NCBI RefSeq assembly: GCF_016595435.1
Contig: NZ_JAENIJ010000022.1
Location: 1-64,000, forward strand
Length of the DNA stretch: 64,000 bases
Origin: Luteolibacter pohnpeiensis
GTDB taxonomy: Bacteria > Verrucomicrobiota > Verrucomicrobiia > Verrucomicrobiales > Akkermansiaceae
Direction of reading: 5' to 3'
Position numbers and translations under genes: made by a program. The notes under the pieces are model-generated. The model was not told where the DNA came from. It ran no database searches and saw only the letters and a program-made list of their open reading frames with translations. Positions 58,525-64,000 of the stretch are shown here, one piece after another (position 1 is the first letter of the stretch; every line of letters begins with the position of its first letter).

Positions 58525-58643
58525 AAGGCGGAGAGTTCAGAATCGGCGACCAGGAATCAAGAAACATCAGTTTCGCGGGAACTCTTTTGTGGATTTCTCC
58601 GTCTTCCTTGATTGTTTTCTCCAAATTCACGATTCTTTCCCTC

Positions 58644-59558
58644 ATGCGCTGCTTTTATTCTCAGGACCTTGAGCTCGAACTTCCTGCCGGGCACCCGTTC
58701 CCGATGGATAAATTCCGCGTTTCAAAAGACATGCTGCTGCAAAACGGCATCCTGCGGCCGGAGGAAATCATCGATGTCCGCATGGCCAACAATCACCTGA
58801 TCCAGCGCGTTCACGAACTCGACTACATCCGCAAGATCGAATCCGGCACGCTCGATCGCAAAGAGCAAATCCTGCTCGGCCTCCCTGCCTCGCCGCGCCT
58901 GTTTGCGCGCAGCGCCACCGAGGTGGAAGCGACCCGTCTCGCCTGCCACTCCGCCCTGGAAGAAGGCGTTGGCATCTGCCTCGCTGGCGGGACGCATCAC
59001 GCCTTCCGCGAGCATGGCGAGGGCTACTGCGTTTTTAACGACATCGCGATCGCCATCCGCGATCTGCAGGACAAGCAGCCGAACATCAAGATCATGGTGG
59101 TCGATACCGATGCCCACCAAGGCAATGGCACCGCCGCCCTGCTCGGCAATGATCCACGGGTTTTCACTTACTCGATCCACGTCGGAAAAAACTACCCGAC
59201 CCGGAAATCCACCAGCTCGCTCGATGTCGAAACGGTTCGCTACGTCGAAGGTGAAATGTATCTGCAGCAGCTGTTCACCTCGCTGGCAAACGCCCTCGAT
59301 CATTTCGCACCGGATCTGGTAATCTGGATTTCCGGAGCGGACAATCATCGCAACGATCGCTTCGGCCAAATGCATCTTTCGCTAAAGGACATTCAGCGGC
59401 GCGATGAAGTGCTGCTTTCCGCGTTCATCAAAAACCGCATTCCGGTCGCGGTGCTCTATGGCGGCGGATACAATCGCCAGCCGGAATTTACGGCCAAGTT
59501 GCATCGCAACACCATCGCCACCGCCAAGCGACTCGCTGCTCAGTATCGCGGGCTTTAA
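58644..59558 (+). CDS. Histone deacetylase family protein
   Basis: Zinc amidohydrolase of the class that includes acetoin-utilisation deacetylase AcuC and bacterial HDAC-like amidohydrolases. The 304 residues carry the charge-relay stretch GGTHHAFREHGEGYCVFND (two His in tandem), the zinc ligands in VDTDAHQGNGTA (Asp and His) and the Asp in ISGADNH, followed by an active-site-like GGGYNR. The usual Tyr near the end is in this GGGYN motif. Start: ATG 58644, which gives a normal N-terminus MRCFYSQDLELELPAGHPFPM, split in family style; an upstream in-frame ATG at 58587 is less likely. Substrate unknown: acetyl-polyamine, acetyl-lysine and acyl sugar are all possible. Confidence 0.85.
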   Translation: MRCFYSQDLELELPAGHPFPMDKFRVSKDMLLQNGILRPEEIIDVRMANNHLIQRVHELDYIRKIESGTLDRKEQILLGLPASPRLFARSATEVEATRLACHSALEEGVGICLAGGTHHAFREHGEGYCVFNDIAIAIRDLQDKQPNIKIMVVDTDAHQGNGTAALLGNDPRVFTYSIHVGKNYPTRKSTSSLDVETVRYVEGEMYLQQLFTSLANALDHFAPDLVIWISGADNHRNDRFGQMHLSLKDIQRRDEVLLSAFIKNRIPVAVLYGGGYNRQPEFTAKLHRNTIATAKRLAAQYRGL

Positions 59559-59622: not shown

Positions 59623-60891
59623 ATGAAGCCCGTTCTTTTTGCTCCACCCGCATTGGCGTTGATTGTCTCTTCTTTTTGGATTGGCGGGCTTCAAAGCAAA
59701 TTGGCATCCGCTCAAAAGGAGATTGCAGATCTTCATCGATCGAACAGGCCGTCGGCATCGATCTCAGGAAACGACTCATCCCGTTCCAACCGTCCGACCG
59801 CTGCATCGGATTGGCAATCCATCGCAGCTCGAAATTCCATCTTGGATTATGGATTTTCCGGCACGCGCGAGCGCACTCGCCTGATTCGACAGATCAACCA
59901 AATGTCGGCCGACGAGTTGTTTGCTGGCTACGATGAGTGCCAGACATTGGACGAAAACTCGACCGAGCGGAAGTTTCTCGAAAACACAATCCTGATGGCG
60001 CTCACGGAGAAAGCTCCCGAACGCATGCTGGAGCGATTTTTTAGCGAAGACCTTGAGCGTCCTTCTAATAAACTCAATTTCCTTGCCGAAGCGCTGTCGA
60101 ACTTGGCAGATCGCGACCTAACAACTGCAGGCAACTGGTTGGACCAACAAATCGCTGCGGGTGCGTTTGATCGTCCGACGCTTGATGGCACGAACTCGAA
60201 CCGTTCATTGTTAGAAAGCGCGCTTCTCTCCAAAATCATCCGCACCGATCCGCAAGCAGCTGCTGCACGTTTGGAAAACATTCCGGAACAACAGCGAACG
60301 GCAACTTTTTGGTCCATGTCTTCGGATATCCCCGATGCGGCAAAACTCAACTTTGTCGAACTGGCCCGGCAATTTCTTCCAGCCTTGGAATCGGTCTCTG
60401 CCGATCCTGGTCAACGCTTGAAGAACAGCTCAACGGATGTTGTCACCCGCATGATGCCCGGCTCACCTTCCGCCGGTGGGTATGACGAGGCTTCAGCCTA
60501 CCTCGACCAAATTTCGGCATCGCCGATCGAACGCGAAGCCGCAGTGCAAGCCATGGGCCAGGCGCGATTGGTTGCGCTTGCGACGAAGCAATCCATCTCC
60601 GCCACTGAGCTCGATGCATTTCGTTGTTGGGCAGCAACGCAATCGCCAGAGTCGGTCGATCGCGATACGGGCCGAACGCTCGCATCTCTCGCAGTCTCGA
60701 CAATGAAATACGAGGACGCTGGAAAACTCGCGCTGCACTATCAGAACACCACTGGCAGCGATGAAATCCTGGTGAATTTCCTCAGCCAATCCGCTTCCTC
60801 GAACCATCCGGAACAAGCAAGCGCTCTCGCTGAGAAAATCTCCGATCCGCAAAAACGTAACGAAGTCCTGCGCCTCATCAACCGCCATTGA
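59623..60891 (+). CDS. Membrane-anchored helical-repeat protein, paralogue 1 of 4
   Basis: A 422-residue protein: N-terminal helix (MKPVLFAPPALALIVSSFWIGG), a short coiled-coil (LQSKLASAQKEIADLHRS), a disordered Ser/Arg stretch and a helical domain with repeats of a degenerate pattern DxxxAxxWLDQQ (NWLDQQIAAGAFDRPT at about 165-180, and later). The ATG at 59623 lies 64 nt after the deacetylase stop; the open frame upstream runs inside that gene and is a shadow. The repeat type recalls TPR/HEAT-like solenoids of uncharacterised Verrucomicrobiota proteins. Function unknown; the four-gene tandem suggests duplication. Confidence 0.7.
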   Translation: MKPVLFAPPALALIVSSFWIGGLQSKLASAQKEIADLHRSNRPSASISGNDSSRSNRPTAASDWQSIAARNSILDYGFSGTRERTRLIRQINQMSADELFAGYDECQTLDENSTERKFLENTILMALTEKAPERMLERFFSEDLERPSNKLNFLAEALSNLADRDLTTAGNWLDQQIAAGAFDRPTLDGTNSNRSLLESALLSKIIRTDPQAAAARLENIPEQQRTATFWSMSSDIPDAAKLNFVELARQFLPALESVSADPGQRLKNSSTDVVTRMMPGSPSAGGYDEASAYLDQISASPIEREAAVQAMGQARLVALATKQSISATELDAFRCWAATQSPESVDRDTGRTLASLAVSTMKYEDAGKLALHYQNTTGSDEILVNFLSQSASSNHPEQASALAEKISDPQKRNEVLRLINRH

Positions 60892-60903
60892 ACCCAGCCG
60901 CGC

Positions 60904-62178
60904 ATGAAAATCACCCTGCCTCTCTCGTTGTTGATCTTGATCATCGCTTGCTGCATCGGCTGGCCATTGCAACAGAAACTCACTGCAGCTCAGCAAACCC
61001 GGGATCGACTTAAATCAACCGCCGTCAATCAATCAACCGCACCCGGTTTTCGATCTTCACGATCTCCTCGCGAGCGCGCTAATTTACAGGCGATCGCCGA
61101 CGATGCGATCCAACGCCATCAAAACCGAAGGACGTCCCGATACTTTGGCATTTTGGTGGACGATGCAGACCTCGAATTCATGGATCAACTGGCCCGCCTC
61201 AACACCGCTGAGTTGTTAGAATTGATCGATCACCTGCAAAGCATTTCCGATCCAGGATTCGACATTTCAGAACTCGTCATGTTGGCCGTCCAGGCACTCA
61301 AAGAACGCGATCCGCTGGCGACCCTAACTTTGTTGATCGAAAAGTCGGAAGTGCTGAACGGGAACCCCATGCGCACCGCCCTGCTCGGTTCGGCTCTTGG
61401 TGCGATCTGCGATTCTGATCCCGATGCCGCGCTGGCTTGGTTTGACCAACATGAAAGCGACTTACTACCGGCAACTGCCGATGGTGTGAAGAGCCTGATC
61501 ATGCGCTCAGTTTCGCTAAAAAATCCGGCACTTGCGTTCGAGCTGTTAGATCGATTCAACATCAATCCGTCGGGAGACCCCGTGCGGGAAATTCTTTTTC
61601 AAAAGCGCACGCCGGAGCAGCAACTCGCGGCCCTTGATGCGTTTCGAAATTACACCCAGTCGATCGCAGACGAGGACTTGCGCAGCAACACCTTCAACAG
61701 CGGTTTCACCAACTTAAGCGTCATCATTTCAGGCGATGGATTCGATGCAGCATCTGCTTGGGTAGGGCAGGCAGATCTCAACCCGGAGGAAAGAGAACTC
61801 TTCGCCCAATCCGCCGCATGGGTTCCCAAATCAACGGAAGAAGCAAGCCAATGGATGAATTGGATTGAACAAAATTTCGATCCTGAAACCACCGATCGCA
61901 TCGTTGCCAGCCGTATTCAAAAGTGGGCCTCATTTGAAGCTGAGGCTGCAGGAAAGTGGATCACCAACACCGATGAAGGCCCGGTAAAAACGGCAGCGAT
62001 CCAATCCTTCCTCAACACCACCACAGGGACCAACCTTACCTACGCAACCGAATGGGCGCTCAATCTAACAACACCTGATAGCCGTAACCTCGCATTGGAG
62101 ACCATTCACAACCAGCTTCAGGAAATGGATCCCGCTGCAGCTGCAACATTCGCTGAAGAACATGGCCTCCAACCTTAG
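60904..62178 (+). CDS. Membrane-anchored helical-repeat protein, paralogue 2 of 4
   Basis: A 424-residue protein with MKITLPLSLLILIIACCIGWPL as membrane anchor, then LQQKLTAAQQTRDRLKS as coiled coil, an Arg/Ser-rich linker and a helical domain. The marks of the family appear in DPDAALAWFDQHESDLLPAT (about 176-195) and ATEWALNLTTPDSRNLALE. It starts 12 nt after paralogue 1, and its end overlaps the open frame (but not the chosen start) of paralogue 3. Similarity to its neighbours lies in architecture and in the AxWxDQ motif more than in overall identity, so the duplication is old. Confidence 0.7.
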   Translation: MKITLPLSLLILIIACCIGWPLQQKLTAAQQTRDRLKSTAVNQSTAPGFRSSRSPRERANLQAIADDAIQRHQNRRTSRYFGILVDDADLEFMDQLARLNTAELLELIDHLQSISDPGFDISELVMLAVQALKERDPLATLTLLIEKSEVLNGNPMRTALLGSALGAICDSDPDAALAWFDQHESDLLPATADGVKSLIMRSVSLKNPALAFELLDRFNINPSGDPVREILFQKRTPEQQLAALDAFRNYTQSIADEDLRSNTFNSGFTNLSVIISGDGFDAASAWVGQADLNPEERELFAQSAAWVPKSTEEASQWMNWIEQNFDPETTDRIVASRIQKWASFEAEAAGKWITNTDEGPVKTAAIQSFLNTTTGTNLTYATEWALNLTTPDSRNLALETIHNQLQEMDPAAAATFAEEHGLQP

Positions 62179-62206
62179 CGGTCACCCTTTAGAAACATCA
62201 ATCGCT

Positions 62207-63430
62207 ATGAAGCTCCACCTTTTCATACCACCCGCCATTTCTCTCCTGATCGCGGGCTGGTGGCTGATTCCTCAGGCCAAAGAAATCACGCATCTTGAGT
62301 CTACCGTTGCTCATCTAACAAAGACAGCAAGGCCTGACCGAACCCACCCCAACCCGCCAACTCACGACCTTCGAGATTGGAAGAAATCCGCGGTGCGACT
62401 TTCCAATGAGCTATCCGATCAACAACGCAAGGAGTTCGATGGGCAACTGAAGGTCATGAGCCGCAGGGATTTACTCGCAGTGCTGCTCGAAATGGAAGCA
62501 ACCGAACTTTCTGAAGCAGAGAAATCCTTGGCACGCTCTTATTTGAGGCAGTTGTTTTCACTCGACCCGCAATTGACCTTCGATCAGTTCGGCGGTCACC
62601 TCTTCGATCAAACCAAGTTGTTCGCGACTTCGCTTCGATTCTGCTTCGGGGGCTGGGCAAAATCGGACCCCGCTTCTGCCACTGCCTGGCTCGATCAACA
62701 AATCGTCGACGGTAAGTTCGAATCCCAAAATCCCTCTCATGATTTTTTACGAAGAATCCTGGAGAACCATATCTTCCACGGGCTCCTCGTCACCCATCCG
62801 CAGCAAGCAGCGGCCCGGCTGGAGTCTTACACCCATGAACAACGGAAATTCATTTTATCATCGTTCTATCAAGTCCCGGAGGATGAACAAATTGGTTATG
62901 CGACCTTGATTCGCTCATCATTTTCCCCGGAGGATGCGACGGTGGCATTCAGTCATTTTATCGAGCCCTATGCCATAGGACCACAACTTTCGAAGTCCAA
63001 GATTTACGAACAAGCAACCGCTGCCATGAACCGCATCGACGCCTCTCCGGCTGAGCGCGAAACAATGATCCAGGCAGCCATTCCCCACACGTTCCGTGAC
63101 ATCGCTGACCAAGGAACGGTAACGATCGGCGATCTCGATGAGTTTCGCCAGTGGTGCGATGCCGAGGCCCCCGCCATCACCGCGAAGCTCACGGGCGAGG
63201 TGCTTGCCGCAGCAGTCACCCGCTCCGAAAATCTGCATTATGCCGAAGCTGCGGAGATGATCATGAGCTATCATCAATCCGACCCCAGCGACGAAACGAT
63301 CACCCGTTTCCTCGAAGGCGAATCGACACCTGATTACCCGGAAATCGCCACGCAGCTCGCTGGGCTCATCTCGGACGAATCACTCCGCCGCGAGTGGATC
63401 GAGCGCCTTCAACCCGATTCATCTCACTGA
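62207..63430 (+). CDS. Membrane-anchored helical-repeat protein, paralogue 3 of 4
   Basis: A 407-residue protein with MKLHLFIPPAISLLIAGWWLIP as anchor, then coiled-coil residues KEITHLESTVAHLTK, a Pro-rich linker and a helical domain with SDPASATAWLDQQIVDGKFE at about 156-175, which closely matches the NWLDQQIAAGAFD of paralogue 1, and TATAAMNRIDASPAERETMIQ-like later helices shared with paralogue 1 (ISASPIEREAAVQAM). So paralogues 1 and 3 are most alike. The ATG at 62207 is preferred to one at 62162, which would place 15 residues before the membrane helix and overlap paralogue 2. The stop overlaps the next ATG by 1 nt. Confidence 0.7.
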   Translation: MKLHLFIPPAISLLIAGWWLIPQAKEITHLESTVAHLTKTARPDRTHPNPPTHDLRDWKKSAVRLSNELSDQQRKEFDGQLKVMSRRDLLAVLLEMEATELSEAEKSLARSYLRQLFSLDPQLTFDQFGGHLFDQTKLFATSLRFCFGGWAKSDPASATAWLDQQIVDGKFESQNPSHDFLRRILENHIFHGLLVTHPQQAAARLESYTHEQRKFILSSFYQVPEDEQIGYATLIRSSFSPEDATVAFSHFIEPYAIGPQLSKSKIYEQATAAMNRIDASPAERETMIQAAIPHTFRDIADQGTVTIGDLDEFRQWCDAEAPAITAKLTGEVLAAAVTRSENLHYAEAAEMIMSYHQSDPSDETITRFLEGESTPDYPEIATQLAGLISDESLRREWIERLQPDSSH

Positions 63431-64000
63431 TGAAAATCTCACTCGCTCTCTCGGTTCTCATCCTTCTCGTCGCCGCCTGGTTGCGCACGACCAATCATCA
63501 GCACGTTTCCGAACTGCGCGCTCAGGTCACGGCTTTGCGGGGAAAAACGAACGAGACATCGAACAAAGCGGAATGGCACGCCAGCAAACGCGAGCTACGA
63601 CCGTCCCACGAATCCAACCTGAAGGCGCTCACTGTAGATTCGTTGGATTACCTCCACGATATCGAAGCAGCGTCTTACAATGAACAAAACGAATTCTCAC
63701 CCAGATATGGCGAATTGCTGGCGCGCATCAAATTGCTCGACACCGATTCCTTCGAGCAATTCATCACCGCTGTCCGCGATGCGGATGACCTTAGCCAATC
63801 GACACGCGAAGATTTCCTAGCCTGGGTCATGGCCACGTTTAGCTCGAAAGATCCCCATGGAGTCCTCGACATCTTTACGCGCGGTTTTGATTTTCCGGGT
63901 TGCTCCCGATTTCGATCGCTCGCGATCAACAACACGATTTCCTCACTTGCCTCAGATGATCCCTATGCAGCAGCTGCGTGGCTGGAGCAACATGGCAAAG
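63430..64000 (+). CDS. Membrane-anchored helical-repeat protein, paralogue 4 of 4 (cut by window end)
   Basis: Partial gene. The ATG shares its A with the TGA stop of paralogue 3. The 190 residues visible begin MKISLALSVLILLVAAWLRT (membrane helix), then HVSELRAQVTALRGK (coiled coil), a charged linker, and helical segments ending DDPYAAAAWLEQHGK, the same family mark as WLDQQ and WFDQH of the others. The frame is open to the last base of the window, so the C-terminal half is missing. It continues the 4-gene plus-strand tandem with 1-nt spacing. Confidence 0.75.
   Translation, partial: MKISLALSVLILLVAAWLRTTNHQHVSELRAQVTALRGKTNETSNKAEWHASKRELRPSHESNLKALTVDSLDYLHDIEAASYNEQNEFSPRYGELLARIKLLDTDSFEQFITAVRDADDLSQSTREDFLAWVMATFSSKDPHGVLDIFTRGFDFPGCSRFRSLAINNTISSLASDDPYAAAAWLEQHGK

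Follow-up and report, generated by a model that had tools for sequence, protein, structure and literature searches.

ECF48, ECF52 (SCO4117), ECF53 and IutY combine a sigma factor of the extracytoplasmic function (ECF) type, a transmembrane helix and an extracytoplasmic domain in one polypeptide, as set out in the passages of an ECF review that deal with them (PMC8999054); for fused extensions of this kind those passages describe release by proteolysis as proposed or shown. The same passages assign ECF48, ECF52 and ECF53 to Actinobacteria (PMC8999054), and IutY is from Pseudomonas putida, as the title of a paper on it states (PMC5411451). ECF42, in the review's account of that group, carries a C-terminal TPR extension of ∼200 residues that is expected to bind other proteins (PMC8999054). 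The string 'verrucomicrob' is absent from the review's main text. Here we describe a tandem of paired genes, A and B, from the verrucomicrobial bacterium Luteolibacter pohnpeiensis, found in a stretch of 64,000 nucleotides (the window: positions 1–64000 of the 81,208-base contig NZ_JAENIJ010000022.1, with which it shares its numbering). A also occurs in this bacterium fused to an ECF sigma factor, an arrangement that points to the pair as a reusable module for sensing or binding outside the cell. A literature search, judged from titles and the openings of abstracts, returned no description of the A–B family or of its sigma fusion.

Two paired subfamilies in one tandem

The tandem consists of eight genes in four A–B pairs, all on the contig and, where they pass the end of the window, read beyond it; the row closes at a gene for 6-phosphofructokinase (PFK). 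A first-pass annotation, made from the letters of the window, had reported four consecutive plus-strand genes spaced 12, 28 and −1 nt and had proposed looking to the right for more copies: the coordinates and spacing hold, and four further genes were found there. Those in the window, all on the forward strand, are A1 (59623..60891, 422 aa), B1 (60904..62178, 424 aa), A2 (62207..63430, 407 aa) and B2 (63430..64395, 321 aa, of which 63430..64000 lies in the window), the last overlapping A2 by 1 nt. Genes five to eight follow at 64479-65687, 65695-66981, 67109-68401 and 68398-69663.

BLAST among the eight proteins divides them into two sets in unbroken alternation: A is the first, third, fifth and seventh, B the second, fourth, sixth and eighth. 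Identity is 25–31% within A and 21–27% within B, and the best match between the sets is 3e-5. The early observation that copies 1 and 3 are most alike (27%, 7e-38) was correct and is one instance of this wider pattern, copies 2 and 4 being likewise alike (23–24%, 6e-19 to 2e-23, with copy 4 taken entire); what the first-pass annotation missed was the alternation itself, along with the fusions of A to sigma factors at other loci of the genome. Profiles built from this genome's own sequences, eight of A and nine of B, align end to end (hhalign probability 99.4, E 5.7e-22, 392 columns). By this profile similarity A and B are ancient homologues, subfamilies of a single unnamed family.

The pairing extends well beyond the tandem. 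Among 83 A-type open reading frames (ORFs), collected from five regions of this genome and 60 of other genomes in its taxonomic family, B is next on the same strand for 76; of the remaining seven, three stand at the end of a locus and four do not, the latter including the front half of a frameshifted A (cluster C254) and the A of L100, whose B scored just under the cut. The distance from A to B, with the B start taken from the model alignment, ranges from −46 to 91 nt, and in 13 cases the two genes overlap by 4 nt. A and B also diverge in step: their distances correlate at 0.89 overall and at 0.92 within genomes (73 pairs, 87 comparisons), as against 0.63 ± 0.08 when partners are permuted inside genomes (0/2000 permutations reach 0.92). 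Since linked inheritance alone could yield such co-divergence, the correlation marks the pair as a unit and does not speak to contact between the proteins. Judged from these patterns, pairs appear to be gained, lost and exchanged as units.

Each of the four window proteins has a hydrophobic 17-residue window after just 1–4 residues (Kyte-Doolittle 1.96–2.64); in A1 this putative transmembrane segment covers residues 4–20 (59632..59682, + strand). AlphaFold models of A1 and B1 (mean pLDDT 84.6 from 26 sequences and 85.7 from 25) are all helical. The hydrophobic segment runs on as a single long helix, 3–41 in A1 and 4–45 in B1, which may be a coiled coil; after a weak linker (low confidence at 41–60 in A1) come 21 helices in each model, forming an alpha-solenoid, residues 64–421 in A1 and 55–419 in B1. 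The membrane anchor and helical solenoid proposed at the outset are thereby borne out, and the outcome named as fatal to a common plan – folds unrelated to one another – did not materialize, given the profile match between A and B and the solenoid in both models. The mark described as (A/N)W(L/F)(D/E)Q fared less evenly. Searched as (A/N)W(L/F)(D/E)(Q/H), it occurs once in each of the four window proteins, always with Q: as NWLDQ at residues 171–175 of A1 (60133..60147, + strand), with counterparts at 178 in B1, 160 in A2 and 183 in B2. Shuffled proteins give a mean of 0.008 and a maximum of 1, summed over the four (2000 shuffles). It is not a mark of the whole tandem, being missing from genes 5 and 8, displaced in gene 6 (288) and altered to NWLDH in gene 7.

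None of the families in Pfam or NCBIfam scored above its curated cut-off in the four window proteins (B2 by its in-window part), nor did the B of C179 against Pfam or the B of one relative against NCBIfam; TPR, HEAT and PPR profiles found no match in the window proteins. A and B resemble alpha-solenoids such as PPR proteins, HEAT/karyopherins and importin alpha in overall helical shape. The best VIA-align scores against solved structures are Z 9.8 for A (root-mean-square deviation 11.1 over 329) and Z 12.0 for B (16.4 over 343), both below the value of about 13 under which VIA-align warns of mere common arrangement for helical repeats, and Foldseek gave no match of A or B at E ≤0.001. Among the folds in the VIA-align tables and Foldseek, the solenoid matches appear to reflect general shape rather than family membership.

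Sigma-factor fusions and their upstream motif

At two further loci of this genome, C179 and C185, an ORF (658 and 705 residues, respectively) opens with an ECF sigma factor and has A as its C-terminal part. C22 is a third, more diverged fusion, and B stands directly behind sigma-A at all three. A fourth sigma protein, C133, is extended by a stretch that looks helical but goes unrecognised by the A model. The genome holds these four tethered sigma genes together with seven sigma-free A genes (one broken). Pfam Sigma70_r2 and region 4 score above cut-off in C179, C185 and C22, and in one protein each of the relatives G053, G141 and G026. Over the pairing sample, sigma is fused to 19 of the 83 A-type ORFs, and the alignment between the tandem's A1–A4 and sigma-fused A spans the whole length. 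By hydropathy alone, all 19 fusions have a hydrophobic 17-residue window (1.74–2.75) at residues 234–287, the homologue of the N-terminal segment of A1. Because this segment is internal in the fusions it is no cleaved signal peptide there, and its position speaks for A and sigma being on opposite sides of the membrane. Pfam detected no anti-sigma domain in the A extension.

A tree of 81 A domains, a quick tree that carries a long-branch warning, requires nine changes between fused and plain states, at least three of them forced by starred branches. In raw counts, a Met lies no more than 12 residues before the hydrophobic segment in 18 of the 19 fusions, with a GTG-coded Val in the remaining one, and the junction reads Met-Lys or Met-Arg in 12; Met-Lys resembles the start of a plain A. 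Internal translation from this Met was considered and found no support: a Shine-Dalgarno-like word scoring at least 4 precedes it in 1/19 (for L085 the count used a Met five residues too late), as against 8/44 plain A, 5/71 B and 18% of 1718 internal ATG codons.

Some sigma factors (L134:6319-8367, L072:6321-7907 and L081:13597-15165) are joined to different C-termini without a match to the A model, some of them with WA..DP-like repeats by eye. The group of tethered sigma factors appears modular. In the C254 cluster of this genome, the second A (L011:9296-10532) is split by a frameshift, for which a sequencing or assembly error is possible.

Upstream of the first 19 sigma-A genes, counts of 6- to 8-mers and dyads were no higher than in block shuffles. 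By eye, TTTGTCC was picked out upstream of seven of the 19 (0/61 plain A, 0/78 B, 6/511 other genes); because the word was chosen in these genes, independent evidence comes solely from a held-out set of 40 tethered-sigma genes. This set comprises 17 sigma-A genes, defined by full-length profile coverage beyond the sigma part, and 23 with another C-terminus, among which G108:C16 was placed in spite of similar coverage. In the form TTGTCC, to which the word was loosened after the held-out result had been seen, it occurs 15–70 nt before the expected start of 9/17 held-out sigma-A genes and 6/23 of the others; for these two groups the opposite strand gives 0 and 2 and the reversed word 1 and 0. 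The same stretch has it in 0/60 plain A, 0/78 B and 9/468 other genes, and in five of the first 19 sigma-A genes, some of whose starts are mechanical guesses. For C185 and C133 the true starts were assigned by eye.

The word forms part of a longer arrangement, AAAWWWTTGTCC-N16/17-GG(TGTT or ACAG), seen ∼40 nt before tethered-sigma genes, those with a non-A C-terminus included; sites are upstream of 8027 in L135, at L134:8360-8470, upstream of about 6005 in L013 and in L186–L225. In this genome TTGTCC-N15-17-GGTGT has eight matches and the variant ending in GGACA three, against three and four for the reversed patterns; three of the 11 matches precede tethered sigma genes: C22 by 44 nt, C133 by 41 nt and C185 by 40 nt. 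Since the motif resembles an ECF −35/−10 pair, it is likely a promoter from which these sigma factors transcribe their own genes.

Distribution and replacement of pairs

The A model finds a match at 1e-5 in 54 of 145 genomes of the taxonomic family, of which 47 reach 1e-12 or better; the matches in the remaining seven, the weakest, may be to something other than A. A sample of the phylum yields 9/337 genomes at 1e-10, this one included, and all nine belong to the window's own family, in agreement with the initial description of the genes as lineage-specific. Named relatives (29 loci) are all Verrucomicrobiota, among them Haloferula sp. BvORR071, a culturable relative that carries a pair, and a Luteolibacter metagenome-assembled genome; the labels of such assembled genomes include Akkermansiaceae, Verrucomicrobiaceae and Akkermansia. 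Over the 60 loci of other genomes and five of this one there is no general conserved neighbour of A–B, the commonest neighbouring family being ABC ATPase-like by eye (seven genomes).

Immediately upstream of the tandem lies a histone deacetylase (HDAC)-like gene (58587..59558, + strand; Pfam Hist_deacetyl, 1.1e-53), so that the neighbour named in the first-pass annotation is real. A working tie to it was considered and rejected: HDAC and PFK adjoin without pairs in the relatives G476, G135 and G474 (57, 57 and 26 nt apart, with mechanical starts). The comparison covered 12 loci, of which L147, L151, L153, L154 and L155 are uninformative, having no HDAC in the compared piece. In G452 the two genes are 2.2 kb apart, with neither A nor B between them; two pairs stand there in G141 and G026, and four in this genome. 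The HDAC-like gene therefore marks the insertion site and is an incidental neighbour.

The pairs at this site are of varied origin. In G141 and G026 the nearest match of the first A is C254 (33%) and that of the second A is A1 (32%); since the pairs of these two relatives resemble those of the window no more than they resemble others, they indicate that the site gathers different pairs. Recent tandem duplication in our genome is rejected by the fact that all eight proteins match another genome better than they match the five loci of their own; the expansion suggested in the first-pass annotation is not supported as a recent one. Between G141 and G026 the ratio of nonsynonymous to synonymous substitution rates (dN/dS) is 0.10–0.20 for the site pairs, 0.08 for HDAC and 0.02 for PFK: judging by these ratios, plain pairs at the site are under purifying selection and evolve faster than the two flanking genes. 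In both relatives the gap from HDAC to the first A (L049:10485-10741, L052:10523-10824) contains, by eye, a long imperfect inverted repeat, GGAGGTCGCGGAGAG ... CTCTCCGCGACCTCC.

In this tandem seven of the eight genes are full length with a single open frame. B2 (L010:5431-6396), at 321 aa against a median of 433, is the shortest of 73 B proteins and ∼100 residues below the others; A3 begins 83 nt later, and the C-terminal quarter of B2 seems to have been deleted.

Of particular interest is a sigma-A-B locus shared by G141 and G026, two species of one genus. Its flanks are 87–94% identical in DNA, and 163 of the first 200 aligned positions of the sigma part are identical (82%), whereas beyond the linker the count is 101/397 and B is 37% identical over its aligned part. 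Within the sigma protein DNA similarity ends around residue 177, and it returns ∼39 nt before the end of B; the 2,660 unmatched bases between (L074:5187-7846 versus L075) comprise linker, A and B. The rate dS is 0.07–0.58 for neighbouring genes and 1.4 for sigma-A. Similarity likewise ends near residue 165 between G019 and G006, yet there the downstream flank differs too. In G053 a sigma gene (L046:16203-16930) has the motif 42 nt upstream, ends near the sigma/A junction and has no A–B behind it; its frame past the linker merely overlaps an ORF on the opposite strand. A convergent gene lies beside its end, with a product that resembles a hydroxypyruvate isomerase. From the alignments, the A–B block of G141 and G026 looks as if it had been swapped; such cases may be traces of exchange, for which any mechanism is a proposal.

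What the pairs may do

We favor, with a probability of roughly 0.55, the view that A and B form a membrane-anchored, heteromeric binding or sensor module of the envelope, in some cases coupled to a sigma factor; we infer the complex, the ligand and the mechanism. A and B would meet in the inner membrane, perhaps via their membrane-near coiled coils, with the solenoids in the periplasm, and would bind an extracytoplasmic ligand, either protein or polymer. In sigma-A, ligand or stress would alter the A–B complex and free or unmask the sigma domain, by conformational change or by intramembrane proteolysis, for which the fused sigma/anti-sigma protein IutY is a precedent in the review's account of it (PMC8999054); the freed sigma factor would then transcribe its own gene and others. 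The window's plain pairs would be sigma-free versions that bind without direct transcriptional output or hand the signal to another partner. The self-assembling envelope complex suggested in the first-pass annotation is thus one possible form of the module.

Several results count against the binding or sensor module. Sixteen genomes chosen for their plain A genes were searched with the front portion of the fusions, which comprises sigma, linker and membrane segment (cut 1e-20, frame >450 residues). For four of them, G000, G141, G026 and G053, sigma-A was known beforehand; in ten (G036, G131, G013, G122, G024, G065, G033, G059, G052 and G120) no tethered sigma was found, although most of these ten assemblies are fragmentary and a gene interrupted where a contig ends could have escaped the search. 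The A–B pair is seen in nine of the ten (the B of G036 is cut by a contig end), and G059 is known by its A match. It follows that plain pairs probably have a use of their own and act on their own, and that sensing by them would be an analogy drawn from the fusions. The motif, too, performs less well than one would wish: the strict TTTGTCC occurs in 3/17 held-out sigma-A genes and 5/23 others (opposite strand 0 and 1, reversed word 2 and 0), the loosening of the word came after that count, and two of the 17 (G126 and G465) have no A match by the A model. In this genome the two-part motif has no match at C179, the fourth tethered sigma gene, and none on the window's contig. Finally, a clean block break is seen in one of the seven tethered sigma pairs with sigma identity of at least 0.80, and hence at one locus; in the other six the rest of the protein is 0.93–0.95 identical in three and 0.61–0.75 in three.

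The main rival gives A–B pairs a structural role, as envelope spacers or as periplasmic scaffolds that assemble themselves, to which sigma is merely anchored. A membrane anchor with a solenoid suits scaffolding, as do copies in tandem and the ten genomes with plain pairs and no tethered sigma found. Recognition is nonetheless the better fit to the 25–31% identity among A copies of one tandem, to the presence of zero, two or four pairs at one site and to the replacement of an A–B block under a conserved sigma, which a housekeeping scaffold would hardly call for; many genomes of the family, moreover, lack a match. We consider the structural explanation unlikely, and the 'structural array' of the first-pass annotation finds no specific support here. 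Sigma-free pairs might instead tune the tethered sigma factors with which they share a cell, acting as decoys, co-receptors or donors of partners. Four tethered sigma genes beside seven sigma-free A genes in this genome, and the full-length alignment of A1–A4 with sigma-fused A, fit such tuning; it sits poorly with the ten genomes in which tethered sigma was not found and with the absence of TTGTCC upstream of plain A genes, and we rate it as less probable again than a scaffold. That the tandem is a relic of degenerating, functionless copies is the least credible of these alternatives: the shortened B2 and the possibly erroneous frameshift in C254 are outweighed by seven full-length genes and by the low dN/dS of same-site pairs in two relatives.

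A bolder extension of the sensor module is that whole A–B blocks are replaced at the sigma/A junction, switching the specificity of a conserved tethered ECF sigma factor, with sigma-free tandems as standing stock and sibling receptors. The junction Met, the sigma head of G053 without A–B and the replaced block of G141 and G026 would be traces of such cassette traffic. We regard this as a long shot, a little less probable than a scaffold and a little more so than tuning by decoys. If cassette exchange were general, the input of a sigma factor would change and its output be kept, and tandems would be a testable repertoire. The sensor module itself would connect transmembrane signalling with a family that neither Pfam nor NCBIfam names: one and the same module of two proteins exists free and, as the topology predicts, forms the outer half of sigma factors tethered to the membrane, and the upstream motif offers a direct reporter assay.

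Among known systems, DdvA (PDB 8rw5), by its title a dimeric transmembrane anti-sigma factor and so likewise a membrane regulator of a sigma factor, ranks 34 in the Foldseek search with A (E 0.083, TM-score 0.18), a match no better than dozens of unrelated solenoids, and we claim no homology. ECF42 shares with sigma-A the fusion of sigma to a helical-repeat domain; sigma-A has a hydrophobic helix before the repeats, and none is described for ECF42 in the review passages on that group. Closest are ECF48, ECF52, ECF53 and IutY, which, as those passages present them, have the same order of sigma, transmembrane helix and extracytoplasmic domain. They differ in that the extension of sigma-A is the A solenoid, without a Pfam anti-sigma domain, and is accompanied by a separate gene B; the window's own genes, moreover, have no sigma domain (Pfam and NCBIfam gave neither sigma-70 region 2 nor region 4 in its four proteins). 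Sigma-fused A shows the sequence features of an ECF factor with a transmembrane extension, namely sigma regions 2 and 4 and a hydrophobic segment between region 4 and the C-terminal domain, and the upstream motif is compatible with self-transcription by a sigma factor that would become active once a signal releases it.

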